A DNA stretch of 64,000 nucleotides from Bacteroidales bacterium (GTDB lineage Bacteria; Bacteroidota; Bacteroidia; Bacteroidales; Tenuifilaceae). A model generated the notes under the pieces. The model was not told the origin of the DNA, did no database searches, and worked only from the letters and a program-made list of their open reading frames with translations. The stretch spans positions 62,001 to 126,000 of the forward strand of contig JABFRB010000014.1 in the NCBI GenBank assembly GCA_013141385.1, read 5' to 3'. Made by a program: the position numbers and the translations under genes. Below are positions 34,713 to 51,625 of the stretch, piece by piece. Positions within the stretch are counted from its first letter, which is position 1, and each line of letters starts with the position of its first letter.

Positions 34713-37700
34713 ATGAGTAAATTTAAACCATCCTTAATGATTTTTTTCCTATCTCTTGCTTTCTACATTGACCTTAATGCCCAGGAGAAGGACTTTGTCC
34801 CTAATTTCATTCCACCTTCACCTACCGCTTACGAGCTAGGAAAATATGGGCAGATACCTATTGGAATGTTTACAGGAACACCAAATATTAGCATACCTCT
34901 CTACGAGTATAAAACAAAAAATTTATCTGTCCCAATCTCTTTGAGTTATAGTTCCAATGGGATAAAGGTAGATCAGATCGAAACTAATGTTGGACAAAGT
35001 TGGAGCCTAAATGCTGGTGGGGTAATAACTAGAATTGTTAGAGGAAAGCCCGATGAACAGGAACAATCCTATTTCCCAGAGCAGGATATTGCAACAGCAG
35101 GAGTTCAAAGTCCAATGGCAATTCAATATTTTTATAATATTGGTAATAGTAATGGTGAATTGGATTCAGAAACTGATCTTTTCATGTTCAACTTTAAGAG
35201 TCACTCCGGTAAATTCGTTTACGATCATCATAAAAAAATTATACTAATACCTTATCAGGATCTAAAAATTGAACCATATTCTGAATTAGATAATCTAGGG
35301 CAAGAACGATTAGGGTTCAGAATTACTACCTCCGATGGAATAAACTACTATTTTTTGGATGATGAGCAAACCATTTATAGGACTTCGAATGCAGGACATT
35401 CAACACCTGAAACGCAAACTACAGCATGGTACCTCTCTCGGATTGAGCATCCAACAGGTGATAAAATTGAATTTGTGTATGATAGTCAGGGCTACGAATA
35501 TGTTTCCTCTCAATCAGAAACACTTGATGTTATTTTCCCCGATGGACAAAGAGGGTGTAGTGGGCAATTTTATGGGGGATATACTTATGCAACAATATTA
35601 AACCACTCCCAGATACGCGGTAAAGTCTTGAAGGAAATAAAGAGTAACAATCCTTACAGCGGGAGGTTAAACTTTGAATCAACGTTTCAGCACCCAGACC
35701 CTGACTTGGGTGGTTATAAACTGATAAACGCAATAACAGTTAGCGATAAAGACAATAATATTGTTGAACAAAATTCCTTTCAATACATTACAACTAGTAA
35801 TTATAGAGTATTCCTAAGTAAGATTACTTTTAAAGATCCTTCAAAGAACTATCAGTTTGACTACATCAATTCTGAGGGTTTACCTAAACGACTCTCGTTT
35901 AGTCAGGATCATTGGGGATACTACAATGGACAACAAAACACACATTTAGTTCCTCATATAACAGACCATTTTGCCTTCATGCTTCGGGATGGAGCCAATA
36001 AGGAAGTAAATAGTACTGTCTCAATGAATGGGATATTAAGAAAAGTGATCTATCCTACAAAAGGTTATAATTTGCTGGAATACGAACAGAACTCATACTA
36101 TGGTAGCAAGGTAATACCTGCTCATGGAACATCTATAGATTTAGAAGCAATAACCCCTGACGAGTTTGGATCTTCCTATGACCAAGTTCAAACTATACAT
36201 GTTGGATTCAACCAAACACTTTCAGTTAACGTAGTTGTCAACTTCAATATAGCCTGCGATACTACATTGAATACCGGATTTCATACCGCTGCAACGCTTA
36301 CCGTTAAAAATCTCCAAACCAATGAGATTCTAAACTTTTCCACTCGAAATAGTAGCGGGATTTATATCCCTCGCGAAGAAGGAAACTTGTTTTCACCAGG
36401 GGGCATTCATAATAACTGCTTTTTAACAAATGTTCCCGTTGGTGATTATGAAGTAAAACTTCATCCAACTTATCAGTGCGTATTCTCAAGTGCACATTTA
36501 TCCTATTATGATCAACCTGAAACCACCATTCAAGCCAATATCGAAACAGGGGGTATACGAATAAAAAGGGTGACAGCCCATGATCCTGTTCAAAATATTG
36601 ATAATGTTACCCGTTACTACTATGGCCCTATGAATAACCTTACACAGTTTAGTGCCGATGAAGGACAAAAAGCGTATTACATATCAAATAGTATAGAAAG
36701 ATTTCCATGTATAGCTGCGGGGGAGCATGCCGATATTGAACATGTTATTCTTAGTTCGAGCAGTTTAACAAACCTATTCAACACAGGAAGTAATAATATA
36801 TACTACCCATATGTTACACTTAGCCAGGGTGGAGATAATTTTGAGAATGGAGGTGAGGAGCATGAATTCATTTTACACCGAGATAGTCCTGGAAATTCTA
36901 GATGGGGTGAAGATATCAAAGGTGCCCCTTGGACAAATTTTGGTTGGGACAACGGGTTAGAGAAAAACATTAAGGTTTTTAAAAAAGATGCCAGCAATGG
37001 TTTGGTTGTTTTAAATGAAACTAATAATCACTATAAAACGGATGAACGAAATTATAGTGAGGTATCTGGTTTTTCGGTTAGAAAAAAATTCGAAATGGTT
37101 TTAGGTGCAAATCCAGTTTATACTTGTACGGATGATGATGTCACTTCAAAAACCATTGATTTTTATTGCTCAACAGACCATGTTCATTCTTGGTATTTAG
37201 GAGAACCCATGCTATGCATAGCCAGAAATGCCAATAATACATTCCGATTTATTTATCATCCATGTTACGGACTGGCACCATACACAGTAATCACTCTTCC
37301 GCAAAACCTCTCTAACCTTGATATAACAGAATATAAAAATCTCTCCTACTGGAACTACCTCGATAGTACTGCAACCAAGCAGTACGATATTAACGGTGAG
37401 AACCCCGTTACGACTACAACTCGCTATTTCTACGACAACCCATCTCATATCCAACTCACACGCACAGAGACTACTGGTAGCGATGGTAAAACTATAACAA
37501 CCAAAACTCATTACCCCGATGATGACCTAACCAGCCTAGGATTTACCTCAACCCAAAATCAGCTAATTAAACGGTTAGGTGGTGGAGAAAACGGTCTACA
37601 CCGTATAGCAGAAGCCGTTCAGACCGAGCAGATGGTTGATGGCAATATAACATCCACTCAACGAACCCTTTATAAGGATTGGGTTCAAAACGGCGATACC

Positions 37701-38207
37701 CTCATCCTCCCTGAGATAATTCAAACATCAACAAGAGGTAGCAGTTTGGAAAACCGTGCCAGATATAAACAATACGATGAACATGGGAATCCACTTGAGG
37801 TATCAAAGGAAAATGATGTTGTTAGCTCATACTATTGGGGTTATGGCTACCGTTTCCCTGTAGTAAAGGCAGATAATATCTCCTATAATATTCTGGCAAC
37901 AGCCATTCAAAACTCGCTGCCTGCCAGCTTTACCTCTTTGGATGCACTTCTCGATGTAATTGTTTCATCGGGAGCATCAGATTCGCGATGGACTCTATTC
38001 AACAGAAACCTAAGGGCTAACTCCTCTCTCAGTGGCAGGATGATTACCACCTATACCTTTAGCCCAATGATAGGCATCACCTCTCAAACCGATCCCAACG
38101 GTATCACTACCTACTACGAGTACGACAGTTTTGGAAGGCTTTACCAAATCAAGGATCACGAGGGTAACATCCTAAAGAGATACGATTACAACTATAAACA
38201 ACCTTAA
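34713..38207 (+). CDS. YD/RHS-repeat protein with SpvB/TcB-like N-terminus
   Basis: A 1164-residue exported protein with a signal peptide (1-23, cut near LNAQ). The N-terminus (ELGKYGQIPIGMFTGTPNIS, then LSVPISLSYSSNGIKVDQ and GQSWSLNAGGVITRIVRG, residues about 43-111) resembles the start of SpvB/TcB proteins, where SLSYSSG...GWSL is the hallmark. YD-type repeats accumulate in the last ~300 residues (DEHGNPLEVSKENDV, DPNGITTYYEYDSFGRLYQI). It ends in a YD repeat with no RHS core and no toxin tip, so it looks like the B half of a bipartite cocoon. The next gene, 57 bases on, is the C-type half. Confidence 0.8.
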   Translation: MSKFKPSLMIFFLSLAFYIDLNAQEKDFVPNFIPPSPTAYELGKYGQIPIGMFTGTPNISIPLYEYKTKNLSVPISLSYSSNGIKVDQIETNVGQSWSLNAGGVITRIVRGKPDEQEQSYFPEQDIATAGVQSPMAIQYFYNIGNSNGELDSETDLFMFNFKSHSGKFVYDHHKKIILIPYQDLKIEPYSELDNLGQERLGFRITTSDGINYYFLDDEQTIYRTSNAGHSTPETQTTAWYLSRIEHPTGDKIEFVYDSQGYEYVSSQSETLDVIFPDGQRGCSGQFYGGYTYATILNHSQIRGKVLKEIKSNNPYSGRLNFESTFQHPDPDLGGYKLINAITVSDKDNNIVEQNSFQYITTSNYRVFLSKITFKDPSKNYQFDYINSEGLPKRLSFSQDHWGYYNGQQNTHLVPHITDHFAFMLRDGANKEVNSTVSMNGILRKVIYPTKGYNLLEYEQNSYYGSKVIPAHGTSIDLEAITPDEFGSSYDQVQTIHVGFNQTLSVNVVVNFNIACDTTLNTGFHTAATLTVKNLQTNEILNFSTRNSSGIYIPREEGNLFSPGGIHNNCFLTNVPVGDYEVKLHPTYQCVFSSAHLSYYDQPETTIQANIETGGIRIKRVTAHDPVQNIDNVTRYYYGPMNNLTQFSADEGQKAYYISNSIERFPCIAAGEHADIEHVILSSSSLTNLFNTGSNNIYYPYVTLSQGGDNFENGGEEHEFILHRDSPGNSRWGEDIKGAPWTNFGWDNGLEKNIKVFKKDASNGLVVLNETNNHYKTDERNYSEVSGFSVRKKFEMVLGANPVYTCTDDDVTSKTIDFYCSTDHVHSWYLGEPMLCIARNANNTFRFIYHPCYGLAPYTVITLPQNLSNLDITEYKNLSYWNYLDSTATKQYDINGENPVTTTTRYFYDNPSHIQLTRTETTGSDGKTITTKTHYPDDDLTSLGFTSTQNQLIKRLGGGENGLHRIAEAVQTEQMVDGNITSTQRTLYKDWVQNGDTLILPEIIQTSTRGSSLENRARYKQYDEHGNPLEVSKENDVVSSYYWGYGYRFPVVKADNISYNILATAIQNSLPASFTSLDALLDVIVSSGASDSRWTLFNRNLRANSSLSGRMITTYTFSPMIGITSQTDPNGITTYYEYDSFGRLYQIKDHEGNILKRYDYNYKQP

Positions 38208-38264: not shown

Positions 38265-41200
38265 ATGAAAATAAAAAATATAATACTTAACATACTCACA
38301 TTAGCCCTTACACTATTGCTAAACCATAGAGCGTACTCAATTCCGCTAGCAGATGAAATTTATAACAAAACCACTCTCATTGGTGAAAATACGAAGGGTA
38401 GTAATCCATATTTTGGTGTTTGTTACGTTGTCAATATCGACGTTTCAGATCCAGCGATGACGTTTAATTGTGACGATACTGGAACCAAAACGATAACAGT
38501 AACTACGACAAATGGCTGTACCAATTGGGGTTACGAAACTGACTGTGCATGGTTATTATTGACACGAAATGGTTCAACCCTCTCTGTCATGGCTCAAAAC
38601 AACACAGGTATAGAGCGGATAGGGCACATAACTTTTCTAGGTGACGAAGAATATGGAAATATAGTACTCAAAGTAACTCAGAAAGCACCGTGTCCAGTTC
38701 CAACAGTTGGACCAATATACGGCACCATCAGTCCATGTGCAGGGAGCAGTGGAATTTCCTACTACGTCACCCCTATAGCAGGGGTAACCAGTTACACGTG
38801 GACGCTCCCGAGTGGGGCTTCCATAGCATCAGGTGCAGGTTCAAGTAGCATCACAGTAAACTTCTCCTCCTCAGCAGCATCAGGGAATATCTACGTGAAA
38901 GCGACCAACGCTTGCGGAATCAGCCCGCAAGTAGCCAGTTTGCTTTATGTAACTAGTATTCCCCAAACCCCAGGAGCAATCAGCGGTTCTACCTCGTTAT
39001 GCATAGGCAACAGTGCGGCTTACAGTATTTCACCTGTTACCGGTGCAACAACCTATAATTGGAGTGTTACCGGGGGAACTATTACCTCCTCGTTTGGTAA
39101 TGGAGCCAATATTACATTCCCCTCTACCGGAACCTCCACAGTATCGGTAACAGCGGGGAATGGCTGTGGTAACAGTTCAGCCAGTATACGTTCGGTAACC
39201 GTAAATGCCTTACCCACTCCCACCATCAGCGGATCTGCTAGCGTTTGCACAGGTAGTACTGGCAATATATATACAACCCAAACAGGAATGACAGCCTATA
39301 GCTGGACAGTAACAGGCGGAACCGTAACCGCTGGGGGTACTGCCACTAGCAATTCGGTTACTATTACTTGGGGAGCTGCAGGAACGGGTCATGTTAAGGT
39401 AAACTACACCAATGCCAGCGGTTGTACTGCCACATCTCAGGTTGATAAAAGTGTAACAATTAACGCATTATCAACCCCTACTATCAGCGGCACGGCTAAC
39501 GTTTGCTCAGGCAGTGCTGGCAACGTTTATACAACCCAAACCGGGATGACAGCCTATAGCTGGGCTGTAACTGGAGGAACTATAACCGCAGGAGGAACTA
39601 CAACCAGTAACACGGTTACGATAACGTGGGGTGCAGCTGGAACTGGACACGTTAAGGTGAACTATACCAACGCTAACGGTTGTTCAGCCGCAGCCCAAAC
39701 GGATATGAGCGTAATAATCAACGCCCTACCAGTCCCTACAATCAGCGGTTCTACTAGCTCCTGCACTGGCAGTACTGGCAATATCTACACAACACAAGCT
39801 GGAATGACAAATTACTCCTGGACTGTAACCGGGGGAACCATAACTGCCGGGGGTAATACCACTAGCAGTTCGGTAACAATAACATGGGGTGCAGCTGGAA
39901 CGGGTCATGTAAAGGTGAACTATACCAATGCCAGCGGATGTACAGCCACATCTCAGGTTGATAAAAGTGTAACTATTAACGCATTACCAACCCCCACCAT
40001 TAGCGGGCCTACTAGCGCATGCGCAAGCAGCACGGGCAACACCTACACAACCCAAACTAGCATGACAAGCTACTCTTGGGCTGTAACTGGCGGAACCATA
40101 AGCGCTGGGGGAACAACCACCAGCACCTCAGCTACGGTAACATGGGGCGCAGCCGGAACGGGGCATGTTAAAGTAAACTACATCAACGCCAGCGGTTGCG
40201 CTTCAACAGCCCAAACGGATATGAGCGTTACAATCAACAGCGCACCAACCATTCCAACCAACGGTCAACCCCAAAGTGTTCAGGTAGCCGAGGGCAGCAC
40301 AGCCACCTTTAGCATAACAGCAACGGGTACGGGTATCACCTACAAATGGCAGATTTACACGGTTAGCTCTGGAATTTGGGTCGATATTGCCAACGCAACA
40401 GGGAGTAGCCACAGCTTCACCACCACCTATTCTCAGAACGGGAATCAGTACCGCTGTGTGGTGAGCGGAACATGCCTACCAAGCGTTACCTCAAGCAGCG
40501 CAACCCTAACCGTGAATAGCAACCCGAATAAGGTTAGCATAACCTACATACCGCTAATCAAGGATTATGCGTACAACTTTGTTCAGGAGATTCAACCACA
40601 GGTAAAATTACAATCCAGTAGGCTCGACAGCCTACTACAAGGGAAAATCGCCACTCTAAAGGTTGGGGATGTAACCCAATCCATCAGCTACTTCGATGGG
40701 CTTGGAAGACCTATACAAACACTCGGCTACCGTACCAGCCCCTCTGGGAACGATATAATCCAACCCATTGCCTACGATAACATGGGACGTGAAAAGCTAA
40801 AATACCTCCCCTACTCGGGCGGATACGATGGTAAATTCAAACCCAATGCGCTGGGTAGCGGCGGAAACTATAGCACCAGCGATCATCTTAGCTTCTACCA
40901 GAACACCACCCAAACCGATTTACCCACTGCCGAGCCAAATCCCTATTCCGATGCAGTATTTGAACCATCGCCCATTAACCGTGTACTTGAGCAGGGCGCA
41001 CCGGGTTCCACATGGCAACCCACCAACCAAACAGGCTCAAGCAACGGGCATACACAGCGAATGGTTTACAGCGCAAACGGGCAGTACGAGGTACTACAGC
41101 TAACATCCGATACAACAGGGTTGCTAACCAACAGCACAGGCGAGCTCTCTGGTAGCCGTCGCTACTACCCTGCCAATCAGCTCTACAAAACAATAGTGAA

Positions 41201-43919
41201 GAGCGAAAACTGGCAAACTACAGACGGTAGCCTTAACACCACCGAGGAGTTCAAGGATAAGCAGGGTCAGGTGATACTTAAGAGAACCTTCGTAAAGAAT
41301 AGCCTTAACGCAACGGTTTCCGTTAGCACCTACTACGTTTACGATGACCTAAACCTGCTACGCTACGTAATCCCCCCAGCAGCAGCTGATATTATTACCT
41401 TCCCCGCCAACAAGGATAACAGCGTGGTTAAAAACCTCTGCTACTACTACCGCTACGATGGGCGTAAACGCATGATCGAGAAGCAACTCCCCGGTGCCGA
41501 CCCCGTGTATATGGTTTACGACAAGCGAGATAGGCTCGTAGCCACTCAAGACGGGAATATGCGGTTGAGTGGTAAGTGGCTAATCACCAAGTACGATGAA
41601 CTGAACCGCTCCGTTGCCACCGCAGAGTTTGCCAACTCATCCAGCCCTGATGCGATGCAAACCCTAGCAAACAGCTACATGGGGAGTAACCTCTTTGAGG
41701 TGCGTGATAATAGCACCCTACACGGCTACACCAAGCGATCCTTCCCCGGTATTGTGGCGGATGATTGCTACCTTACGGTAACCTACTATGACGACTACCT
41801 CTACAAAGATCAACCATCAGTAAGTTTCGACAATAGCCAGAAGATAGATTCTTACAGGCTATTCGAGTCGGTGAAGTACAATCAAGCAGTACTGGGTCAG
41901 GCTACTGGAACCAAGGTAAAGGTACTAAAGGATGGTGCTGCCACTTGGCTTCGCTCTGCGATTTACTACGATGATCGCTACCGAACCATTCAGACGGTAC
42001 GTGAGACCTACCCCTCCGGGCTTGAGTATACCTCCAGCCGTTACAGTTTCAACAACTCCATAGCCGAAACAAAGACCTACCAGAGCTACGGGCACGTTAC
42101 GATGGACAACCTCTACTCCTACGACCATGCTTGGCGACCCCTAAAGACCGTTCAAACCATCAGCAAGGGTAGCGTTACCAAGGTGGAAACGCTTGCCGAG
42201 CAGGAGTACAACGAGATTGGCCAACTTAAAAGCAAGAGGTTGAGCGGGGGAGCGCAGCAGCTCGACTACGCCTACAACATACGCGGGTGGCTAACGACCA
42301 TCAATAATATTGGCAGCGCATCGTCCAACGTAAGACAATTTTCACTATCTTTACGCTACAACGATAGCAGCATGGGGGTTCTACCGCAGTTCAACGGGAA
42401 TATCAGCTCGATCAGCTGGCGTATGCCGGGTGGTACGGGAGCTGTAGCCAACGGAGCGCAGCAGAACTATTCGTTTACCTATGACGCTTTAAACCGCCTC
42501 CGAAATTGCCATTACAGCGAAGGGCTAGCAGGGAATCTAACCAATGAGGGGAATTACGATGAGAGCATCGGGAACTATGACCTTAACGGAAATATCCTCT
42601 CGCTCTCCCGAAAGAAGGTTGGGGTTGAGAAGGATGCGCTCGTCTACACCTACGAGGGCAACCGCCTAGTGGCTGTGAACGATGCCGCCGATGACAACAC
42701 CCTTTTCACCGAGAAGAGTCAGTCTGGTATCGAGTACACGTACGATGTCAACGGGAATATGATCACCGACCTCAACAAGGGGATTAGCGTAGCCTACAAC
42801 GTGCTGAATCTCCCTAAACAGGTAGAATCGGGGAGCGATTTTGCCAGCTACATCTACGATGCCAGCGGTAACAAGCTGGCTCAGATGATCAGGAGCGGCA
42901 GCGCAAGAGATACCCTTTACTACTCGGGGGCTTTCATATATAACGATGCCAAGCTGGACTATGCGCTCACGGGCGAAGGGCGGGTGGTCTACGCCAATGG
43001 CCTTTTCAGCTACGAGTACTTTTTGAAGGATCACCTCGGGAGTACCCGCGTGGCCACCGCAGCCAGCGGCACGGTGAACACCAGCACGTTCTACTACCCC
43101 TTCGGGCTTGCCCTAAAGGAGGTTAACAGCCAAGGTGATAACCGCTACCTCTACAACGGCAAGGAACTGCAGGATATCAGCCTAGGAGGTGTTGAGCTGG
43201 GATGGGTTGATTACGGGGCGCGGTTCTACGACCCGCAAATCGGCAGGTGGATGAGCATTGATCCTCTTGCTGAGAAATATATTAGTATTACACCCTATAA
43301 TTACGTTGGTAATAATCCAATTGTCTACTTTGATCCTGATGGTAGAATAAAAGTTGATAGCAAAGGTAATGTCGTATTTACTCCTACGGGAAATCCTGTA
43401 GAAGTGTCTCATCCTTCTGGCTCCACTGCTACTGTTCAACAGGGCTATGTTTATGCTGATGATGGAACTAAAATTGAATCTTTTAAAAATTTAACTGGAG
43501 ACAAAGGTTGGGATACAGACTGCCATGGTGTAACATTTGCAAATGGTCAAGTATGGATAAATAATGACCAAGTGGATAAAATCTTGAACGGCGATGGATA
43601 TGTTGCAGTTAACAAATCAGACACTAAAGAAGGTGACAAGGTTGTTTATCGTGATGGCGAAGGAAATGCTGAACACTCTGTAACTGTTGTCGATAAAGAA
43701 AATGGTGCTATAACAGTTGAAGGACAAGGAGGATTAGAGACAGAGAATCACAAAGATAATGTAGATAAGGCCTGGGATAAAAACTCCAAACAGACGTATT
43801 ATAGAAAACAAGAGAAGAAAAAAGAATTAAAAGATATTGTTAAATTGCCAAGTACTGCCGCAAAAGATAATACAAATGTTGGTTCGGGCGGTAATGCTGC
43901 AAATGGAATAGGGTTCTAA
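38265..43919 (+). CDS. Exported BACON / PKD-Ig / DUF6443 / RHS polymorphic toxin with papain-like tip
   Basis: An 1884-residue protein. A signal peptide (1-25) is followed by a BACON-like domain (about 45-148), PKD/Ig-like repeats (about 150-662, four of them 86-residue near-copies), an Ig-like domain (about 663-755), DUF6443 (about 757-900, ISYFDGLGRPIQTLGYRTSP), YD repeats and the RHS core (YGARFYDPQIGRWMSIDPL, then NNPIVYFDPDG at 1690-1693). The tip (1694-1884) has Cys1753 in DTDCHGVTFANGQVW, GDKVVYRDGEGNAEHSVTVV with His1804, and a final TYYRK, pointing to an NlpC/P60- or CHAP-like papain-fold hydrolase. A small lipoprotein gene follows 16 bases later. The tip is AT-rich compared with the GC-rich core, a sign of exchange. 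Confidence 0.85.
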   Translation: MKIKNIILNILTLALTLLLNHRAYSIPLADEIYNKTTLIGENTKGSNPYFGVCYVVNIDVSDPAMTFNCDDTGTKTITVTTTNGCTNWGYETDCAWLLLTRNGSTLSVMAQNNTGIERIGHITFLGDEEYGNIVLKVTQKAPCPVPTVGPIYGTISPCAGSSGISYYVTPIAGVTSYTWTLPSGASIASGAGSSSITVNFSSSAASGNIYVKATNACGISPQVASLLYVTSIPQTPGAISGSTSLCIGNSAAYSISPVTGATTYNWSVTGGTITSSFGNGANITFPSTGTSTVSVTAGNGCGNSSASIRSVTVNALPTPTISGSASVCTGSTGNIYTTQTGMTAYSWTVTGGTVTAGGTATSNSVTITWGAAGTGHVKVNYTNASGCTATSQVDKSVTINALSTPTISGTANVCSGSAGNVYTTQTGMTAYSWAVTGGTITAGGTTTSNTVTITWGAAGTGHVKVNYTNANGCSAAAQTDMSVIINALPVPTISGSTSSCTGSTGNIYTTQAGMTNYSWTVTGGTITAGGNTTSSSVTITWGAAGTGHVKVNYTNASGCTATSQVDKSVTINALPTPTISGPTSACASSTGNTYTTQTSMTSYSWAVTGGTISAGGTTTSTSATVTWGAAGTGHVKVNYINASGCASTAQTDMSVTINSAPTIPTNGQPQSVQVAEGSTATFSITATGTGITYKWQIYTVSSGIWVDIANATGSSHSFTTTYSQNGNQYRCVVSGTCLPSVTSSSATLTVNSNPNKVSITYIPLIKDYAYNFVQEIQPQVKLQSSRLDSLLQGKIATLKVGDVTQSISYFDGLGRPIQTLGYRTSPSGNDIIQPIAYDNMGREKLKYLPYSGGYDGKFKPNALGSGGNYSTSDHLSFYQNTTQTDLPTAEPNPYSDAVFEPSPINRVLEQGAPGSTWQPTNQTGSSNGHTQRMVYSANGQYEVLQLTSDTTGLLTNSTGELSGSRRYYPANQLYKTIVKSENWQTTDGSLNTTEEFKDKQGQVILKRTFVKNSLNATVSVSTYYVYDDLNLLRYVIPPAAADIITFPANKDNSVVKNLCYYYRYDGRKRMIEKQLPGADPVYMVYDKRDRLVATQDGNMRLSGKWLITKYDELNRSVATAEFANSSSPDAMQTLANSYMGSNLFEVRDNSTLHGYTKRSFPGIVADDCYLTVTYYDDYLYKDQPSVSFDNSQKIDSYRLFESVKYNQAVLGQATGTKVKVLKDGAATWLRSAIYYDDRYRTIQTVRETYPSGLEYTSSRYSFNNSIAETKTYQSYGHVTMDNLYSYDHAWRPLKTVQTISKGSVTKVETLAEQEYNEIGQLKSKRLSGGAQQLDYAYNIRGWLTTINNIGSASSNVRQFSLSLRYNDSSMGVLPQFNGNISSISWRMPGGTGAVANGAQQNYSFTYDALNRLRNCHYSEGLAGNLTNEGNYDESIGNYDLNGNILSLSRKKVGVEKDALVYTYEGNRLVAVNDAADDNTLFTEKSQSGIEYTYDVNGNMITDLNKGISVAYNVLNLPKQVESGSDFASYIYDASGNKLAQMIRSGSARDTLYYSGAFIYNDAKLDYALTGEGRVVYANGLFSYEYFLKDHLGSTRVATAASGTVNTSTFYYPFGLALKEVNSQGDNRYLYNGKELQDISLGGVELGWVDYGARFYDPQIGRWMSIDPLAEKYISITPYNYVGNNPIVYFDPDGRIKVDSKGNVVFTPTGNPVEVSHPSGSTATVQQGYVYADDGTKIESFKNLTGDKGWDTDCHGVTFANGQVWINNDQVDKILNGDGYVAVNKSDTKEGDKVVYRDGEGNAEHSVTVVDKENGAITVEGQGGLETENHKDNVDKAWDKNSKQTYYRKQEKKKELKDIVKLPSTAAKDNTNVGSGGNAANGIGF
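39219..40250 (+). repeat. Four tandem 258-bp (86-residue) PKD-like repeats
   Basis: In-frame units at 39219-39476, 39477-39734, 39735-39992 and 39993-40250, each containing SWxVTGGTxxAGG and TWGAAGTGHVKVNY. Units 1 and 3 share ATSQVDKSVTINAL, and units 2 and 4 share SWAVTGG and AQTDMSV, so the array looks like a duplicated 516-bp dimer. Such repeats form adhesive or spacer stalks and can change in number by recombination. Confidence 0.9.
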
Positions 43920-43935
43920 ATTAAACCAGTGATCA

Positions 43936-44385
43936 ATGAAAACGGTTATTAGCATAATATTAACTATTATCTTATTTAATAGTTGTAATGCACAAAAAAA
44001 GGCTATGGTAGAAATTGGTGATAAGGTTACAGACTCTATAACCTTCAAAAAAGGTTCATTTATCATGATTAGCCCAGCTCAATTAGAAGTTGGTTATACT
44101 ACTGTTATCGAAGGAATAAAATTTACTATTTGTAAGGATAAAAATAATCTTGTAAAATATATAGAAACTAAAGATAATGTTTTTATTACTGAGGATAGTA
44201 TCAAGATAGGAATGTCTTTAACAGAAGTAAAAAAATTAACAAATAATGAGTTACGTTTAGAAAGAGGATGGGCTTTTGTTATGCCTTTACCTTCAGGATG
44301 GAATGTTGCTTTTGAATTTTCAAAGGATGATTTTAATAAAATTTCTCCCGACTCTACTATAAAATGGATATTTAAGAGGAAGTAA
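43936..44385 (+). CDS. Small predicted lipoprotein, candidate immunity to the papain-like tip
   Basis: A 149-residue protein with lipoprotein signal (MKTVISIILTIILFNSC, lipobox FNSC, residue 17 Cys) followed by NAQKKA. No acidic LES motif follows the cysteine, so it is predicted to stay in the periplasm rather than reach the surface. The rest (VEIGDKVTDSITFKKGSFIM, then LPSGWNVAFEFSKDDF) matches no family I recognise. It starts 16 bases after the RHS gene and is followed by a terminator, the classical position of a cognate immunity gene. Immunity function is inferred from position only. Confidence 0.7.
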   Translation: MKTVISIILTIILFNSCNAQKKAMVEIGDKVTDSITFKKGSFIMISPAQLEVGYTTVIEGIKFTICKDKNNLVKYIETKDNVFITEDSIKIGMSLTEVKKLTNNELRLERGWAFVMPLPSGWNVAFEFSKDDFNKISPDSTIKWIFKRK

Positions 44386-44427
44386 CTTCGCACTAAGCCT
44401 CCGTGGTTGAGTGAAATGAAAACGAAG

Positions 44428-44452
44428 ACCCGCCTAACCAGCGGGTTTTTTA
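44428..44452 (+). terminator. Cassette terminator 1 (GCGGGT type)
   Basis: ACCCGC / GCGGGT stem (44428-44433 with 44441-44446), 7-base loop, then six or more T residues. The same ACCCGC...GCGGGT design recurs after the next two candidate immunity genes. Confidence 0.85.
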
Positions 44453-44465
44453 TTTTATATAGTTT

Positions 44466-45005
44466 CTAATAATTAACATTACAAACCGTCAAGATTTTTT
44501 CATTAGGAACTGTAAAGTGCGAGAACATTTGCCAGAACCTTGCTTTTCTTTCCTTTAAGGTCATTAAATACCTATTGTGCGTGATGCTCTTCCGCATGTA
44601 CCACCAAACCCGTTCGATGGGATTAAGGTTGGGCGAATAAGGAGGCAGGTACATGATTTCAATTTTTGGATTCCTCTCAATGAATGCCCCCAGCAGCTTG
44701 GCATGGTGGTACCGAACGTTATCAACAATTAGCACGATTTTGCCTGTCGCTCGGTATGCCCTGAGAAGTTTCTTGAGGTGCTTTCTAAAGGTCAGGTAAT
44801 TGCCCTTGTCAGCAAAGCTTATCGTGATCTGGCCCGAGGCAATATTCAGGCTACCGAAGGTGGTCTGCCGTTCTCTTTGCCTCTGCTTGCATTCAATCAC
44901 GGGCTGTTGCCCCTTCACGCCCCACGTATAGGAAAGGGTTGCAGTATTGCTCAGGCTGAACTCGTCCTCGAACAGGAAAACCGTATCAAGGGGTTCTTCC
45001 AGCAG
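44466..45005 (-). CDS. IS630 transposase, DDE part (frame B)
   Basis: The 179-codon second frame of the transposase, expressed only as a fusion. The catalytic triad is complete: Asp in DTVFLFEDEFSL, Asp in KIVLIVDNVRYHHAK and Glu in SPNLNPIERVWWYMRKS. The upstream HTH frame ends just past an A8 run at plus 45006-45013 (T8 on the plus strand). This frame is reached by a +1 shift at that run, either programmed or by transcriptional slippage. An internal ATG at 44918 exists but would omit the first catalytic Asp. Confidence 0.8.
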   Translation of the reverse strand: MLEEPLDTVFLFEDEFSLSNTATLSYTWGVKGQQPVIECKQRQRERQTTFGSLNIASGQITISFADKGNYLTFRKHLKKLLRAYRATGKIVLIVDNVRYHHAKLLGAFIERNPKIEIMYLPPYSPNLNPIERVWWYMRKSITHNRYLMTLKERKARFWQMFSHFTVPNEKILTVCNVNY

Positions 45006-45531
45006 TTTTTTTTAACGACTCGACGAACGCTGCTTGCTGGATGGGATCCGCTTCAGGGTACCTGCCTCTTGCCTTTTGGAAGGAGAACCCAAGCGCCTTG
45101 AGTATGTTGTATACCTGGGCCCTCTTGTATTCTACCCCAAAGGTTTTCTTGATGTACTCACCGATCAGGGGGCCGCTCCAGGTGGCGGAATTGAAGCCAA
45201 ACTCATCCGGTCTATTATTTGTCAATACGCACTTCAACGCTTCCTGCTGGGCGAGATCCAGTTTGGGTTTTCGCCCGCTTCTGGGCTTATCCCTGAGCCC
45301 TTCTACGCCATCCTTGTTGAAGTTTTTTACCCATACGCAAAATCGCGAATGGGATTTGTAGTAAAGCCCCTCAAGTTTCCTAGAAGATAACCCTTTTTTT
45401 ATTTGAATTAAGGCCATAATCCTTGACCCTACAACATAATCGGGGTTGCTGTTCAGGATGTTTTCGAGCTCTTCAACGGTAATGTTTGGAATGGATAATT
45501 TTTGCATAAGCGGTTTTATGCAAATATACAA
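44986..45531 (-). CDS. IS630 transposase, N-terminal HTH part (frame A)
   Basis: A 181-residue frame with two helix-turn-helix parts (SRIMALIQIKKGLSSRKLEG, then KDGVEGLRDKPRSGRKPKLD) that bind the terminal repeats, and a linker region ending AAFVESLKKTAGRTP. After ESLKK it enters the A8 run and terminates soon after, while the DDE domain continues in the +1 frame. The actual start may be the second Met (about 45507). A real transposase needs frameshifting here, otherwise the copy is inactive. Confidence 0.8.
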   Translation of the reverse strand: MYICIKPLMQKLSIPNITVEELENILNSNPDYVVGSRIMALIQIKKGLSSRKLEGLYYKSHSRFCVWVKNFNKDGVEGLRDKPRSGRKPKLDLAQQEALKCVLTNNRPDEFGFNSATWSGPLIGEYIKKTFGVEYKRAQVYNILKALGFSFQKARGRYPEADPIQQAAFVESLKKTAGRTP

Positions 45532-45562
45532 ATATTGTATTGTTATATATTAGATTATATGT

Positions 45563-45615
45563 AAACGGCAAGCTGCCGCCGAACATTATCCTCGAACAAG
45601 CAAGAATCGAAGAAC
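45563..45615 (+). repeat. Shared 5' boundary of orphan RHS modules (copy 1)
   Basis: AAACGGCAAGCTGCC at the left and ATCGAAGAAC just before the ATG at 45616; the matching copy stands at 50406-50446 ahead of module 4. The copies differ by a 12-base indel. In a shifted frame both read NGKLP...HAPKQ, so this may derive from coding DNA of a parent RHS gene. Confidence 0.7.
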
Positions 45616-47946
45616 ATGCGCCCAAACAAAGAGTGGCTCTTCACCAAGTACGATGTATTCAACCGCCCAGTAATGACGGGTGTTTACACCCACAGTTCGG
45701 CTGCAACGCAGGCGCAGATGCAGGGATTCGTGGATGCCCTTTACAACCCGACTCCACCCGCTACCGCCAGAGCGTACTTCGTAACCCGCAACAACATAGG
45801 GGAAACAGGGTATACCGATGAGTCTTTCCCTATTACGGCCGATGGGATCACCGAGTACCTCTCTGTCACATACTACGACAACTACGGATTTCCCGGTGTA
45901 CTGCCGTTCTACGATGCCAATGGCATGAACATCTCTGGCTATAGCGATGGCGAAGGGGCTGATACTCGGTACTTCGAGGAGCTCAAGGGGCAGGTAACTG
46001 GAAGCCGAACCAAAGTTTTAAACTCCAGTATCTGGCTCACCACGACCAACTACTACGATGATAAATACCGGGCAATCCAGTCACGGGGCGATCTGTACGA
46101 TGGATCGAACAGTGGGAAGGAGACCACCTCCACCCTCTACGATTTCTTGGGGAAGGTTAAGCAAGCCAAACTAAGGCAGGAACTCAACGGGGCCTCCACC
46201 ACGGTGGCGAAGTACCTCACCTATGACCATGCTGGCAGATTGCTTAAAGTAGAGCAGGAGATCGACGGGGCGAATCGCACCACGCTCTCCGATCTAACCT
46301 ACAACGAGCTGGGGCAGCTACAACAAAAGAAACTGGGTGGAAACATACAATCTGTCGACTATAAATACAATATTAGGGGATGGCTAACAAGAATAAATGA
46401 TCCCGATAATCTAGGAGTTGACCTGTTTGGCATGATGTTGAACTACAACACCGCCGAGGCGCAATTCACCTCACAGCCTCAGTACAACGGCAATATCTCA
46501 TCCGCTGTTTGGAATACAACTGGTAAGGTTAAGAGTGCCTACGGTTACACCTATGATGCGCTAAACCGCCTCATAGAATCCGACTATAAGACCACCATCA
46601 GCGGAACACTCGCAGAGAGCGGTGCATACGAGGAGCGCAACCTAGCGTACGACCTGAACGGCAATATTAACCGCCTAGTGCGAACCAACGTTAGCGGTAC
46701 TGTGTCCGATGATTTCACATATACCTACAACGGCAACCAGCTAAGTTCTATCAACAGCGGCACAGCCTACGTTTACGACCACAACGGCAATATGACCTCC
46801 GATGGGTTAAAAGGTTTCAACATTACCTACAACCAGCTAAACTTACCCTCACAGGTAAGCAAAAGTTCCGAAAATGTTTCATACATTTACAATGCGGCGG
46901 GTACTAAATTAGCCAAACTCCAAAATGGAACGCTAAAGCAGCTGTACGCAGGTTCTTTGGTTTATAATGAGAGCAAGGTGTTAGACTACATCCTGCACGA
47001 TGAGGGAATGGTTGTAAAGCAAAGCGGAGGGTTCGAATACCAATATTTTATTAAGGATCACCTTGGTAATACACGGGTTGTATTCAACGGGAGTGGTAGC
47101 ACATTACAGATAGCCGATTACTACCCATTTGGTAGCAGGTTTGTACCGTTTAGCCCCGAAAGCAGCAATAAGTACCTCTACAACGGTAAGGAGTTGCAAG
47201 ATGATGTGATTGGTGGAGCTCAACTGGGTTGGTTGGATTACGGGGCACGGTTCTATGACCCGCAGATAGGACGATGGATGGTGATAGATCCGAAAGCTGA
47301 TAAATATTTTCAAATATCTCCATTAGCTTATGTTGCAAATAATCCGTTGAAATTCATAGACCCTGATGGTAAAGAAATTCGCATAGTAATAAAAAATGAT
47401 GGAAATGTATTAGAAACTGTTAAATATTCCAAGGGGAAATTATATACAAATGATGGAAAGGAATATACTGGAAAAAACTCATTCGCTTTAAAGATTCAAA
47501 ACACTCTAAATAATCTTAATAAGGTTGATGATAAGAAAGTAAAAAACGTTCTTTCTACGTTAGAAAACAGTGAATTGAAACATTATATTCAATTTAATCC
47601 TTTTGGTCAGGATAACGCACATCCAAAGACTGATGATAGAAGTGCTGTTAACAAAGGCGAACGTTGCGGTTCTCGTATAGATGTAACTCTTGGTAAAGAA
47701 GAAACGGAAAAAGATGTTCCTAGTACTAATGAAACAATATTAGGACATGAACTTCAACATTCTTATGATTACGATCAAGGAAATATGGCTGGTGAAATGG
47801 ATATTGAATCGTCGAATACAGATCCTAAAGAAATTAGAGCAGTTAATTTTGAAAATAGAATAAGATCTTTCTTTCATTTAAAAAGAAGAACTACTTATGG
47901 TGGCGAACCTATTGATAAATCTAAATTAGAGGAACAAAAAAAATGA
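45616..47946 (+). CDS. Orphan RHS module 2 with HExxH metallopeptidase tip
   Basis: A 776-residue C-terminal RHS fragment without signal peptide. It begins MRPNKEWLFTKYDVFNRPVM, equivalent to about residue 1099 of the intact 1884-residue protein, runs through YD repeats to the core YGARFYDPQIGRWMVIDPK, and reaches DPDG at residues 582-585. The tip (586-776) contains HELQHSYDYDQGN (His711, Glu712, His715) and a downstream EIRAVNFENRIR that could give the third zinc ligand, so it is a predicted zincin, M91-like in layout. It lacks secretion signals, so it is likely a silent cassette that recombines into a full-length gene. The last four bases overlap the next lipoprotein gene. Confidence 0.8.
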   Translation: MRPNKEWLFTKYDVFNRPVMTGVYTHSSAATQAQMQGFVDALYNPTPPATARAYFVTRNNIGETGYTDESFPITADGITEYLSVTYYDNYGFPGVLPFYDANGMNISGYSDGEGADTRYFEELKGQVTGSRTKVLNSSIWLTTTNYYDDKYRAIQSRGDLYDGSNSGKETTSTLYDFLGKVKQAKLRQELNGASTTVAKYLTYDHAGRLLKVEQEIDGANRTTLSDLTYNELGQLQQKKLGGNIQSVDYKYNIRGWLTRINDPDNLGVDLFGMMLNYNTAEAQFTSQPQYNGNISSAVWNTTGKVKSAYGYTYDALNRLIESDYKTTISGTLAESGAYEERNLAYDLNGNINRLVRTNVSGTVSDDFTYTYNGNQLSSINSGTAYVYDHNGNMTSDGLKGFNITYNQLNLPSQVSKSSENVSYIYNAAGTKLAKLQNGTLKQLYAGSLVYNESKVLDYILHDEGMVVKQSGGFEYQYFIKDHLGNTRVVFNGSGSTLQIADYYPFGSRFVPFSPESSNKYLYNGKELQDDVIGGAQLGWLDYGARFYDPQIGRWMVIDPKADKYFQISPLAYVANNPLKFIDPDGKEIRIVIKNDGNVLETVKYSKGKLYTNDGKEYTGKNSFALKIQNTLNNLNKVDDKKVKNVLSTLENSELKHYIQFNPFGQDNAHPKTDDRSAVNKGERCGSRIDVTLGKEETEKDVPSTNETILGHELQHSYDYDQGNMAGEMDIESSNTDPKEIRAVNFENRIRSFFHLKRRTTYGGEPIDKSKLEEQKK

Positions 47947-48485
47947 AAAATAGTTTATTTTTGATAATCATAATTCTTTTTCTTCAAAACTGTAGTATTC
48001 CGCAGAATAAGAAATATATTTTCAACATATCAAAGAAGTACAAAGACTTTGATTTACTATTGGTAATTCCTGCGAATAATGGAAGCGAAACGGTAAATGT
48101 ATGTATAAGTAACACTGAATTATTTAAGAATGTTTTCTCTGCTCACTATATTTCTGAGTACAATGATTTTACAAACTTTATTCAGTCGGTAATCAATAAT
48201 AAAAAGAGTATTGATTTTAATAATTTAAAAGAACTCCCTTACAAAATAATTAATCCTAAAGCTGTTGTGTTTGATTATTACAAAGAAAAAGGATTAAATG
48301 GTTTAGTTGGTAGTTATTTAAACAAAGAAGGAAATCGTTTCAGTTCTGTTTACTCAATTAGTGAAGATGACAAATATGGTTTAATTAAGATTATGTTTGA
48401 AAATCATTATTATGTCTCATGGAATGATTATCGTGCTTGCTTTGTTTTCACGAAAGAGTTGGATAGTGAAGATGATCAAAAGTAA
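47943..48485 (+). CDS. Small predicted lipoprotein, candidate immunity to tip 2
   Basis: A 180-residue protein starting with a lipoprotein signal (MKNSLFLIIIILFLQNC, lipobox LQNC) and then SIPQNKK, without acidic residues after the cysteine. It overlaps the RHS module 2 stop by an ATGA junction, so translation is coupled. The body (KYKDFDLLLVIPANNGSETV, ELPYKIINPKAVVFDYYKEK) matches no family I recognise. Role as cognate immunity is inferred from the coupling and location. Confidence 0.7.
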   Translation: MKNSLFLIIIILFLQNCSIPQNKKYIFNISKKYKDFDLLLVIPANNGSETVNVCISNTELFKNVFSAHYISEYNDFTNFIQSVINNKKSIDFNNLKELPYKIINPKAVVFDYYKEKGLNGLVGSYLNKEGNRFSSVYSISEDDKYGLIKIMFENHYYVSWNDYRACFVFTKELDSEDDQK

Positions 48486-48504
48486 GTAAGATATACAAAA
48501 ACAG

Positions 48505-48535
48505 AAAACCCGCTATTGATGATTGGCGGGTTTTT
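48505..48535 (+). terminator. Cassette terminator 2 (GCGGGT type)
   Basis: AAAACCCGC (48505-48513) and GCGGGTTTTT (48526-48535), with a 12-base loop and T-tract, again closing a candidate immunity gene. Confidence 0.85.
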
Positions 48536-48583
48536 GTTTTTATGATGTCAGGCTGATTGCGTTAGATAGGTTATCGCTATGTT

Positions 48584-49783
48584 TTAAAGGGATTTAGCAT
48601 TGCCTACAATCAACTAAATCTACCCTCACAGATAAGCAAAAACTCCGAAAATGTTTCTTACATTTACAATGCGGCGGGTGCTAAACTGGCTAAATTCCAG
48701 AACGGAACGCTAAAGCAGCTGTACGCAGGTTCTTTGGTATATAATGAGAGCAAGGTGTTAGACTACATCCTGCATGATGAAGGGATGGTTGTAAAAACCA
48801 GCAGTGGTTTTCAATACCAGTACTTCCTAAAGGATCACCTTGGTAATACTCGGGTGGTGTTTGAAGGAAGCGGTAACACGCTACAGGTAGCAGATTACTA
48901 CCCATTCGGGAGTAGGTTTGTGCCGTTCAATCCTGAGAGTAGCAATAAGTACCTCTACAACGGCAAGGAGCTGCAGGATGATGTGATTGGTGGAGCTCAA
49001 CTGGGTTGGTTGGATTACGGGGCTCGGTTCTACGACCCACAAATCGGCAGGTGGCATGTCATTGATAATAAAACTGAAAAATACTACTCTTGGAGCCCTT
49101 ACGTCTACGCAATCAACGACCCTGTCAAGTTCACCGACCCAGACGGGAATGATATTTACATCTGGTATCCTGGCGATGATGGCAAACAAACACCTTTTAG
49201 ATTTAATGGTACAAACGGGTCATCCGCACCAAGCAATGCCTATGTTCAAAGCGTGTTGAAGGCATATGATTACGATGTAAAAAATGGCGGCGGTGATAAC
49301 CTAAAAGAAGCAGCGTCTAATTCGAAAATAAGGGTTTCAGTAGTAGAATCAAATGTTGAAACTGGAAGTTTCTATGACAATAACGGTAATGTCTATTGGA
49401 ATCCTTTAGAAGGAACTCTTTCTGAAGACGGTTCATTAATTAGTTCGGCTGCAACTACTCTTGAACACGAGATGGATCATGCTGTTGATGATGCTAAAGA
49501 CCCTGAAGCCCATAAGGAACGGGGCAGACAGGAAGATAAAAAATATGGTAATAAAGAAGAAGAAAGAGTAATAACTGGATCTGAAGCTAAAACGGCTCAA
49601 GCCAATAAAGAATATAAACCTGGGCAAAAGCAACAAAGTCATGGAGGAACTAGAATTATTTTAGAAAACCCAACTTCAACAAAAGTTGATAAAGCCAAAT
49701 CTCTTAACATTTACGAAACATTGAAGAAAGCAGGATTTGATGTTGATAAATTTTTGAAAAATATAAACCAAAACATTAAATAA
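48584..49783 (+). pseudogene. Orphan RHS module 3, start-less, with HExxH tip
   Basis: RHS homology starts abruptly at 48584 (LKGFSIAYNQLN) with no start codon; the first usable in-frame start is TTG at 48734 (LVYNESKVLDYILHDEG). It closely matches module 2 at DNA level up to GARFYDPQIGRW. Counting from 48734, DPDG is at residues 135-138 and the tip (139-349) contains LEHEMDHAVDDAKDP (His245, Glu246, His249) plus KEEERVITGSEAKTAQ, a second, unrelated metallopeptidase-type tip. It has no signal peptide, so it is probably a silent cassette. Confidence 0.75.
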
Positions 49784-49797
49784 TTAAAACTACAAAT

Positions 49798-50340
49798 ATG
49801 AATAGAGTAGTAATATTATTAGTTCTTTCATTTTTTCTTATTGTTTCTTGTATAAGAAAGAAGGAGAAAGCATCTAATATTGATAATATCAGCATCTCTT
49901 ATATTACTGGATATATCAATACGCAGGTACCATTCGTTTGTGGCCAAATACCTGCAATATTACCTGCAATAAGAAAAGATACTATATTGGTTGATGAAAA
50001 AATTCTTTCTGAGGTAGAGCAACAGATTAAAGTATTACAGAATTTAAAAATGGATAGTACAACTTGTGACATTAGATTACAATGCAAAATTTTTTATAGA
50101 AACAAGACGTCTTCTAGTATATGTATTGGAATGTTTAATTGTATTATAAAAGACAATCTTAGAATGTGTAAGAATGACAACTTAACTTATTTAATAAAAA
50201 GGCATTCAGGTTATTATAATTATTTTTCTAAAGAAGATCTGGCCTACTTTGATGAACTAAAGCAATTTGGAATACCTAATGATTATAAAGATTTAAGGAG
50301 GGTAAATAGCCTTGATAGCATCCCATTATCGCCTCAATGA
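49798..50340 (+). CDS. Small predicted lipoprotein, candidate immunity to tip 3
   Basis: A 180-residue protein with lipoprotein signal (MNRVVILLVLSFFLIVSC, lipobox IVSC) followed by IRKKEK, no acidic LES. It contains several cysteines (FVCGQIPAI, TTCDIRLQCK, ICIGMFNCIIKD). It follows module 3 after 14 bases. No family recognised; immunity role is inferred from position. Confidence 0.7.
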   Translation: MNRVVILLVLSFFLIVSCIRKKEKASNIDNISISYITGYINTQVPFVCGQIPAILPAIRKDTILVDEKILSEVEQQIKVLQNLKMDSTTCDIRLQCKIFYRNKTSSSICIGMFNCIIKDNLRMCKNDNLTYLIKRHSGYYNYFSKEDLAYFDELKQFGIPNDYKDLRRVNSLDSIPLSPQ

Positions 50341-50374
50341 ACAAAGACTTTAGGTACAATAATGATCAACAGAG

Positions 50375-50398
50375 AACCCGCCTAACGGTGGGTTTTTT
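50375..50398 (+). terminator. Cassette terminator 3 (GCGGGT type)
   Basis: AACCCGCC / GGTGGGTT (50375-50382 with 50387-50394), TAAC loop and a T-tract. Module 4 begins immediately after it. Confidence 0.85.
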
Positions 50399-50446: not shown

Positions 50447-51625
50447 ATGCGCCCAAACAAAAAGTGGCTCTTCACCAAGTACGATGCGTTTAACCGCCCA
50501 GTGATGACAGGCGTTTACACCAACACCACCAGCCTAACCCGTGAGCAGGTACAATCCGTAGTAGAAACATTCTACAGCAACAGCAACAACAAATACTACG
50601 AAGAGACAGGCTCAGCAATCCTAGGCTACACAAACCAATCGTTCCCCAGCACTACCGCAGAATCCCTGCTCACCATCACGTACTACGATGGCTACCAGCA
50701 GCTAACCACCGCCAACGGATTTGGCACACTGGGGTTCCTAGCAAGCGGAATAATCGCATTCTGCGATAATGATGGGAACACCAACGGTTACCACGATTCC
50801 GTACGAGGGCAGGTAACAGGAACACGTGTAAAAGTGCTGGATGGCAACGAGCATACGGCCAACGCAAAATGGTTAGCCACAGCCACCTACTACGATGACC
50901 GCTACCGACCAATCCAAACCCGTGGAACCCTCTACGATGGGGCTACCGGGGGGATATTCACCACCTCCACCCGCTACCGATTTAATGGCTTGGTTGAGCA
51001 GGTTGCGGAGAGCCAAACCCTCAACAGCGTAACCACTGAGCGTAATACCTTCATGATCTACGACCATGCTGGAAGACTAACCAAAAAGGAGCAGCAAATT
51101 ACTGGTGATGCTTCCAACGGCAGAGTCGCCATCGCCGAAATGACCTACAACGAACTGGGGCAGCTTCAGCAGAAGAAGTTGGGAGGAAACATACAATCGG
51201 TTGACTATAAATACAATATTCGGGGATGGTTAACAAGAATAAATGATCCCGATAACCTAGGGGCTGACCTGTTTGGTATGAAACTGTTGTACAACGATAC
51301 CGATGCAAGCCTCGGGGGTACAGCCCAGTACAATGGAAACATATCAGCAACCGTTTGGAAAACACAGAGTAAAAAGAAGCGAGCCTACTCCTACTCCTAC
51401 GATGAGCTAAGCCGTTTGCTCAGCTCAAATCATAAGGTATACAGCACTACCTGGGGGGATAGCACCTCGTACGAGGAGAAAAATATTTCCTATGATAAGA
51501 ATGGGAATATCACCCACCTGCTCAGAACAAATCAAACTGGGGGTACATTAAATGATTTCACCTATACCTACAACGAAACCAAACTTAAACACTTTCAAAA
51601 ACCAGAGTTAACACAAGCAAAATAA
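50447..51625 (+). pseudogene. Orphan RHS module 4, truncated before the core
   Basis: A 392-residue fragment starting MRPNKKWLFTKYDAFNRPVM like module 2 and matching it closely around GGNIQSVDYKYNIRGWLTRI. The RHS homology stops at FTYTYN near 51575-51590, and the frame then runs into an unrelated dispersed repeat that supplies the last residues (FQKPELTQAK) and the stop. There is no RHS core, tip or immunity gene. It is most simply a truncated cassette. Confidence 0.75.

Follow-up and report, generated by a model that had tools for sequence, protein, structure and literature searches.

A probable RHS polymorphic toxin locus of a Bacteroidales bacterium with three tips, each followed by a predicted lipoprotein immunity gene

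Polymorphic toxins of the RHS type have a long RHS carrier, a variable tip after a conserved core and a small partner encoded downstream (PMC3482391). We describe such a locus in a window of 64 000 nucleotides (nt), the whole stretch of DNA analysed, from a Bacteroidales bacterium of the Tenuifilaceae (assembly GCA_013141385.1, contig JABFRB010000014.1, forward-strand positions 62 001–126 000); coordinates are those of the window. By its architecture the locus is that of an RHS polymorphic toxin, with an RHS-associated core followed by a variable C-terminal tip, and like the described systems it holds extra tip cassettes devoid of the front of the carrier. It differs from them in that all three partners are lipoproteins by prediction, and in the carrier itself, which has a signal-peptide-like start and PKD_6 stretches and gives no PAAR match. 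We estimate at a little over three in four the probability that this is a polymorphic RHS locus with one complete and two stored tip–immunity cassettes, in which the tips attack the envelope and the lipoproteins confer immunity in the periplasm.

The 2012 survey of polymorphic toxins describes Imm65 as its only lipoprotein immunity protein; it is a lipobox protein encoded beside the Bacteroidetes toxin Tox-JAB-1 (PMC3482391). The locus described here resembles this pair in its lipobox partners, and JAB1 tips with lipobox or hydrophobic-start partners occur in the same bacterial family (see below). The tips of the window are of other families. The survey also includes a HopH1/NleD-like metallopeptidase among its tips (PMC3482391). 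Toxicity of VgrG2b is seen in the periplasm but not in the cytoplasm, and the immunity protein against it, of the PA0261 family, depends on its own signal peptide (PMC6899460). It shares with our locus the combination of an HExxH toxin and an exported partner, and for VgrG2b periplasmic killing and immunity have been shown (PMC6899460). Unlike the present tips, it is VgrG-borne and delivered by a type VI secretion system (T6SS), and no sequence link to it was found through our profile A7 of 13 M91 tips. SED_RS06335 of Salmonella Dublin combines an RHS carrier and an M91 tip with a predicted immunity protein located in the membrane; it differs by its PAAR domain, its delivery by a T6SS and its partner, a transmembrane protein of 110 amino acids (aa) (PMC8867033). 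No description of an RHS or M91 tip paired with a lipoprotein in Bacteroidota was found among the open-licence papers listed, judged by titles and abstract openings, which does not establish its absence from print.

The tips and the proteins encoded behind them

The RHS-associated core TIGR03696 is matched in P0001, P0002 and P0003 (E 4e-17 to 1.7e-14), and the motif DPDG precedes each tip (nt 43332, 47359 and 49136 for tips 1, 2 and 3). Tips 2 and 3 carry the motifs HELQH and HEMDH reported in the initial annotation, which took the three tips to be unrelated. This was ruled out for tips 2 and 3, which both pass Pfam Peptidase_M91, by a narrow margin (26.0 bits, 1.4e-5, and 26.3 bits, 1.1e-5; cut-off 25). 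They are only 15 per cent identical and have in common the HExxH motif and an invariant distal Glu; the zinc-site residues H, E and H and the distal E are invariant in all 13 aligned M91 tips. As judged from sequence, tips 2 and 3 are M91 zincins. Sequence searches of the PDB with tip 2, with the profile A7 and with A3, A6 and A4 gave nothing useful: A7 had zero matches at E up to 10, and A3 had two weak matches to YenC2 (E 0.41 and 0.84) over the first approximately 30 residues. Three M91 tips, L163, L093 and L103, have an unsure position in the tree; L163 stands beside tip 2 on a very long branch. At another locus, L162 (genome G318, contig C21), the M91 match lies in a frame that runs into a signal-peptide-like protein, as if tip and partner were in one frame.

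Tip 1 was originally described as papain-like. Cys1753 is present, with His1804 as its aligned partner, and the predicted structure is closest to NlpC/P60 and CHAP hydrolases, at borderline significance; on this model, tip 1 is probably papain-like, of the NlpC/P60 or CHAP type. The family searches proposed at the time placed tips 2 and 3 in M91, and gave no CHAP or NlpC match for tip 1. CHAP is matched in three of five tip 1 relatives, always under the cut-off (E 0.015, 0.23 and 0.12). One relative, L107 (a genome of the same order; about 1083–2124), lies on a short frame of 346 residues, which begins like a signal peptide of its own and retains no more than the end of an RHS core. It is the same protein as L112 (Bacteroidales metagenome-assembled genome (MAG) JAOZQN010000217.1), with a P0004-type lipoprotein directly behind. 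This frame is a small secreted version of the toxin.

Each of the three tips is followed by a small lipobox protein (P0004, P0005 and P0006) and then by a hairpin, as had been reported. The gaps from tip stop to lipoprotein start, given earlier as −4 to +17 nt, measure +16, −4 and +14 nt, respectively. Lipoboxes and hydrophobic N-termini were called here and below with one crude predictor, not with SignalP. As a lipobox is rare among control genes of the same genome (5 of 109 genes of at most 230 aa; 21 of 301 genes in 400 kb), three such genes in a row are unlikely to be due to chance. The three lipoproteins have no significant similarity to one another, and comparison with Pfam and NCBIfam gave nothing over the cut-off. 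The model of P0004 is YfeY/DUF1131-like, with low confidence (11% identity to Escherichia coli YfeY, PDB 2qzb; pLDDT 59.8); BamE and BLIP-like structures are found lower in its match list. A fold in common does not show a common function.

Pairing of tips and lipoproteins

The downstream proteins of RHS and M91 loci (54 proteins, including the three of the window) were compared with one another. With signal peptides cut off, 19 of the 1431 partner pairs are similar (E < 0.01), and the corresponding tips are similar (E < 1e-3) in 19 of 19; with signal peptides left on, this is the case in 18 of 19. The reverse relation is looser: for 75 pairs of similar tips with a downstream protein on both sides, the partners are similar in 19.

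The pair of tip 1 and P0004 recurs in a Sphingobacteriia MAG, where the tip is 60 per cent identical, and in a Bacteroidales MAG; the P0004 relatives, right behind the tip 1 relatives, are 39 and 31 per cent identical, respectively. P0006 is similar to the partners of L095 (E 0.005) and L098 (E 0.004), and among held-out proteins it is the best match to a profile built from four partners of the tip 3 type (1.5e-7; next match 0.046). P0005 is likewise the best held-out match of a profile of three tip 2-type partners (6.6e-4; next match 0.0091), these three (L102, L164 and L167) having been picked partly by eye; adding the P0005 relative L136 to the profile gives 8e-10, a value that is partly circular. 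Since relatives of the lipoproteins are encoded downstream of relatives of these tips at other loci, the lipoproteins of the window behave, on sequence comparison, as cognate immunity genes. The recurrence in other genomes rules out a pairing that is only local.

One tip family is served by more than one partner family, since the tip 1 relatives L110 (Lysobacteraceae MAG) and L111 (Pyrinomonadaceae MAG) have partners of another exported-looking family, 33 per cent identical to each other and different from the P0004 type. By eye, the partners of tip 1 relatives look exported in Curvibacter, Lysobacteraceae and Pyrinomonadaceae MAGs.

Relatives of the lipoproteins were also sought across genomes. 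In 291 genomes, the P0006 profile has 13 matches, which come from nine of them: five, at M91 tips, are members of the profile itself, three others are in tip loci of one genome, and two are among small exported-looking proteins adjoining RHS-type genes. Two matches of the P0004 profile are strong, and both lie at tip 1. The other three (L152–L154) are weak; L152 is a frame of 187 residues that starts with a hydrophobic segment, and there is no RHS tip inside the stretch examined. Used as a single query against 149 genomes, P0004 gave its own match and three weak fragments only. L137 lies inside a long frame of a different kind of protein. In one genome (G078, contig C11), P0006-family genes stand in tandem and flank one M91 tip module on both sides (L147 and L149), an arrangement that resembles a small bank of immunity genes.

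Several observations weigh against cognate immunity. On sequence, the evidence of pairing is strong for tip 1 with P0004 and moderate for tip 3 with P0006, but weak for tip 2 with P0005, the weakest of the three pairs: direct BLAST of P0005 against the partners was not significant, the P0005-type profile leaves the partners of L093 and L103 unmatched, and that of L163 gave no match. The initial annotation had counted lipoproteins found without tips as evidence against immunity. Such cases exist: the single relative of P0005 (L136, 28% identical) and the remaining 3 of the 13 P0006-profile matches (L143, L144 and L146) have no tip inside the stretch examined. They go part of the way towards the refutation named there without amounting to one, and they do not overturn the immunity reading, because orphan immunity genes are normal in such toxin systems.

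The terminator-like hairpins fold well under shuffled sequences (z −4.3 to −6.0). Their ACCCGC/GCGGGT arms, as first described, hold for hairpins 1 and 2; the third has GTGGGT. The pattern ACCCGC-N3..20-GYGGGTTTTT occurs three times in the window against 0.00 expected. A looser pattern has no occurrence in 400 kb of control DNA of the same genome, and is found in RHS loci of three other genomes of the family (G149, G153 and G169; loci L053, L054, L066, L074, L076, L081 and L082). Our guess is that the hairpins mark cassette ends or are a cassette-borne terminator.

The features of the locus are collected in table 1. Modules 2 and 3 are 84 per cent identical across a stretch of 300 nt ahead of the core. 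The split transposase between cassettes 1 and 2 is not part of the mechanism. At 39195–40268, where the intact RHS gene encodes PKD_6 stretches, a 300 nt stretch is present four times with a spacing of 258 nt; the copies are 71–80 per cent identical to the reference copy. A second large RHS-repeat protein, apparently secreted, is encoded at 34713–38207, immediately upstream of the toxin gene. By eye, its N-terminal type also begins beside P0006-family genes in L145 and L148, and this type of protein may be a regular partner.

Table 1. Features of the RHS locus in the window (positions in nt).
Feature	Position	Strand	Remarks
Intact RHS toxin gene, 1884 aa (P0001)	38265..43919	+	signal-peptide-like start (by eye), six PKD_6 stretches, DUF6443, RHS core, tip 1
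Tip 1, 191 aa	43344..43916	+	Cys1753 codon 43521, His1804 codon 43674
Lipoprotein P0004, 149 aa	43936..44385	+	lipobox FNSC; predicted immunity to tip 1
Hairpin 1	44424..44450	+	pattern at 44428; −13.8 kcal/mol
Transposase in two open reading frames (DDE_3; HTH_33/HTH_32)	44466..45531	-	between cassettes 1 and 2
Module 2, RHS fragment	45616..47946	+	core and tip 2, without signal peptide
Tip 2, Peptidase_M91-type, 191 aa	47371..47943	+	HELQH at 47746, distal Glu739 codon 47830
Lipoprotein P0005, 180 aa	47943..48485	+	lipobox LQNC; predicted immunity to tip 2
Hairpin 2	48504..48535	+	pattern at 48508; −19.8 kcal/mol
Module 3, RHS fragment	48566..49783	+	core and tip 3, without signal peptide; open frame from about 48566, first listed start 48734
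Tip 3, Peptidase_M91-type, 211 aa	49148..49780	+	HEMDH at 49466, distal Glu codon 49583
Lipoprotein P0006, 180 aa	49798..50340	+	lipobox IVSC; predicted immunity to tip 3
Hairpin 3	50376..50397	+	arm GTGGGT with G-U wobble; −19.7 kcal/mol
Module 4, RHS fragment	50447..51625	+	neither RHS core match nor tip

Predicted exported partners at other RHS loci

The frequency of predicted exported partners was established in three sets: the RHS loci of the Genome Taxonomy Database (GTDB) family (42 cores in 14 of 27 genomes) and the M91 tips of the order (14 of 295 genomes) and of the phylum (13 of 345 genomes), the window's own genome being in both of the latter. A partner is an open reading frame (ORF) of at least 60 aa within 100 nt. 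From the family search, L050 (contig end) and L079 and L084 (no tip read) were dropped; of the 39 cores kept, three are those of the window and L049 was moved to the M91 set. The 21 rows of the order search were reduced to 17 by dropping L096 and L105 (window) and L101 and L104 (no RHS core). The 19 rows of the phylum search were reduced to 10, three own-genome rows having already been counted and no RHS core being recognised in frame in L157, L162, L165, L166, L169 and L170. This gives 28 RHS-borne M91 tips (17 + 10 + L049), all from other loci; they are not independent by tree, and L090 and L091 are near-identical.

Of these 28 tips, 25 have a downstream ORF; the exceptions are L099, L156 and L100, where the next P0006-family gene begins approximately 570 nt downstream. 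All 25 partners have one of two features: 13 have a lipobox and 12 a hydrophobic N-terminus, which may be a signal peptide or an anchor, without further membrane spans. For the other RHS tips of the family, the corresponding figure is 16 of 33 (11 lipobox, five hydrophobic start), including L044, a doubtful ORF of 65 aa; seven partners are multi-span, 10 have no signal, and two additional tips have no ORF. Control genes of at most 230 aa in 400 kb of the window's genome give 18 of 109 (five lipobox, 13 hydrophobic start). The differences between M91 tips and other tips (p 6e-6) and between M91 tips and control genes (p 7e-16) are overstated by these values, the rows being related. Predictor and eye disagree on L158, scored as lipobox and reading like a plain signal peptide, and on L167, where the reverse applies. 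Among the dropped rows, the neighbours of L169 and L170 look exported by eye and those of L101, L157 and L165 do not. At L057, a lipobox ORF lies 265 nt downstream, outside the limit. The window's genome has eight RHS cores, with a lipobox partner within 100 nt only at the three of this locus.

Pfam gave no match for the majority of the 36 scanned tips. The identified family tips with a lipobox partner are M91 (L049), CHAP (L067), M23 (L068), JAB1 (L076), Ntox23 (L058 and L069) and DUF6973 (L051). Another JAB1 tip (L053) is followed by a partner with a hydrophobic start. There are two Ntox50 tips, one with a cytosolic partner (L064) and one with none (L054). A rule by which a long hydrophobic pre-tip segment would indicate cytosolic immunity showed a weak trend (length p 0.061; hydrophobicity p 0.013; length cut-off p 0.17, window left out), from which we make no claim.

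The proposal that peptidase-like tips are matched with envelope-located immunity is thus supported by the M91 matches, by the co-similarity of tips and partners and by the 25 of 25 M91 partners. The accompanying statement that lipoprotein immunity is unusual is not supported for this lineage: among the other RHS tips of the family, 11 of 33 also have a lipobox partner, and Imm65 (PMC3482391) and VgrG2b (PMC6899460) are precedents.

Mechanism, competing readings and meaning

In the mechanism that we propose, the intact RHS protein would be exported by Sec and then displayed, and would bring its peptidase-type tip into the envelope of neighbouring cells. There, peptidoglycan peptides would be cut by tip 1, probably a papain-like hydrolase of the NlpC/P60–CHAP type; tips 2 and 3, as M91 zinc metallopeptidases, would probably cut envelope proteins. 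Every tip would travel with its own lipoprotein and terminator. Once expressed, the mature lipoprotein would face the periplasm, bind the tip and block it there; to judge from the N-termini, the periplasm is the most likely site of immunity. Modules 2 and 3 have no signal peptide; they are most likely cassettes that were displaced or that serve as donors, and their immunity genes may still give protection. C-terminal displacement is known in rhs genes.

The strongest competitor, although itself unlikely, is that modules 2 and 3 are dead relics, with P0005 and P0006 unexpressed and tip 1 and P0004 as the only pair that counts. Both modules lack a signal peptide and the N-terminal half of the RHS protein, and module 4 lacks a tip. 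However, their tip and lipoprotein frames are open, the four invariant zinc-site residues are kept and each module has its own hairpin, which weakens this reading, as decay would be expected to affect them. It is in any case not in conflict with what the tip–lipoprotein pairs do.

It is distinctly improbable that the lipoproteins are exposed on the surface and neutralise the tip extracellularly, ahead of its entry into the periplasm. Many Bacteroidetes lipoproteins are on the surface, the export signal being K-(D/E)2 or Q-A-(D/E)2 (PMC5080379). Neither form follows the lipobox Cys in P0004–P0006, where the next residues are NAQKK, SIPQN and IRKKE; IRKKE has a single E and, in line with the initial annotation, none has two acidic residues at +2 to +6. 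There is at most one such residue in 24 of 25 lipobox proteins of both sets, a weak test in that the same is true of 17 of 20 control lipoproteins. Moreover, a hydrophobic N-terminus without a lipobox is found in 12 of the 25 M91 partners, in keeping with a periplasmic location.

A role of the lipoproteins in export, folding or anchoring of the RHS protein, instead of immunity, has a parallel in MafA, a constant secreted lipobox protein thought to anchor the Neisseria MafB toxins (PMC3482391). We regard this as very improbable: MafA is constant and encoded upstream, whereas the lipoproteins studied here are encoded downstream and change with the tip; as constant anchors they are ruled out, showing no significant mutual similarity, with partner similarity that tracks tip similarity. 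Equally improbable is an intracellular action of tips 2 and 3, with the neighbouring lipoprotein unconnected or protecting by another route, as for NleD, an M91 member that cleaves proteins inside eukaryotic cells (PMC9846239): a lipobox or hydrophobic-start partner stands at 25 of 25 M91 tips with an ORF against 18 of 109 controls, and VgrG2b, labelled M91 in one paper (PMC8867033), works in the periplasm (PMC6899460).

As regards delivery of the periplasmic toxin proposed here, P0001 has no match to a type IX secretion system (T9SS) sorting domain or to PAAR in Pfam or NCBIfam, and its C-terminal end is the tip. SprA is present in the genome. VipB (PF05943) was not found there, the E. coli control being matched; TssC (PF17541) gave no match in the genome, the positive control being likewise silent. 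The TANFOR toxins of Bacteroidetes have Sec signals and a proposed T9SS route, and raise the same question of delivery (PMC7073777). The locus thus poses the question of the route by which a Sec-exported RHS protein with no PAAR match would reach the periplasm of a neighbour. It also offers three defined toxin–antidote pairs for experiment.

Lipobox partners are common among the RHS loci of one Bacteroidota family, compared with the single family Imm65 of the survey (PMC3482391), and the location of the partner is a readable clue to where the tip acts. We tentatively suggest, as a possibility slightly short of even odds, that Bacteroidota RHS systems have a periplasm-directed arm, in which RHS-borne M91, tip 1-type, CHAP, M23 and JAB1 tips are matched by exported, often lipid-anchored immunity proteins, and cytoplasm-acting tips by cytosolic ones; the single Ntox50 tip with a partner fits the latter half. 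If this is true, the M91/NleD family would be mainly envelope-attacking in these bacteria, and the signal peptide of the neighbouring gene alone would predict the compartment in which an unknown tip acts.

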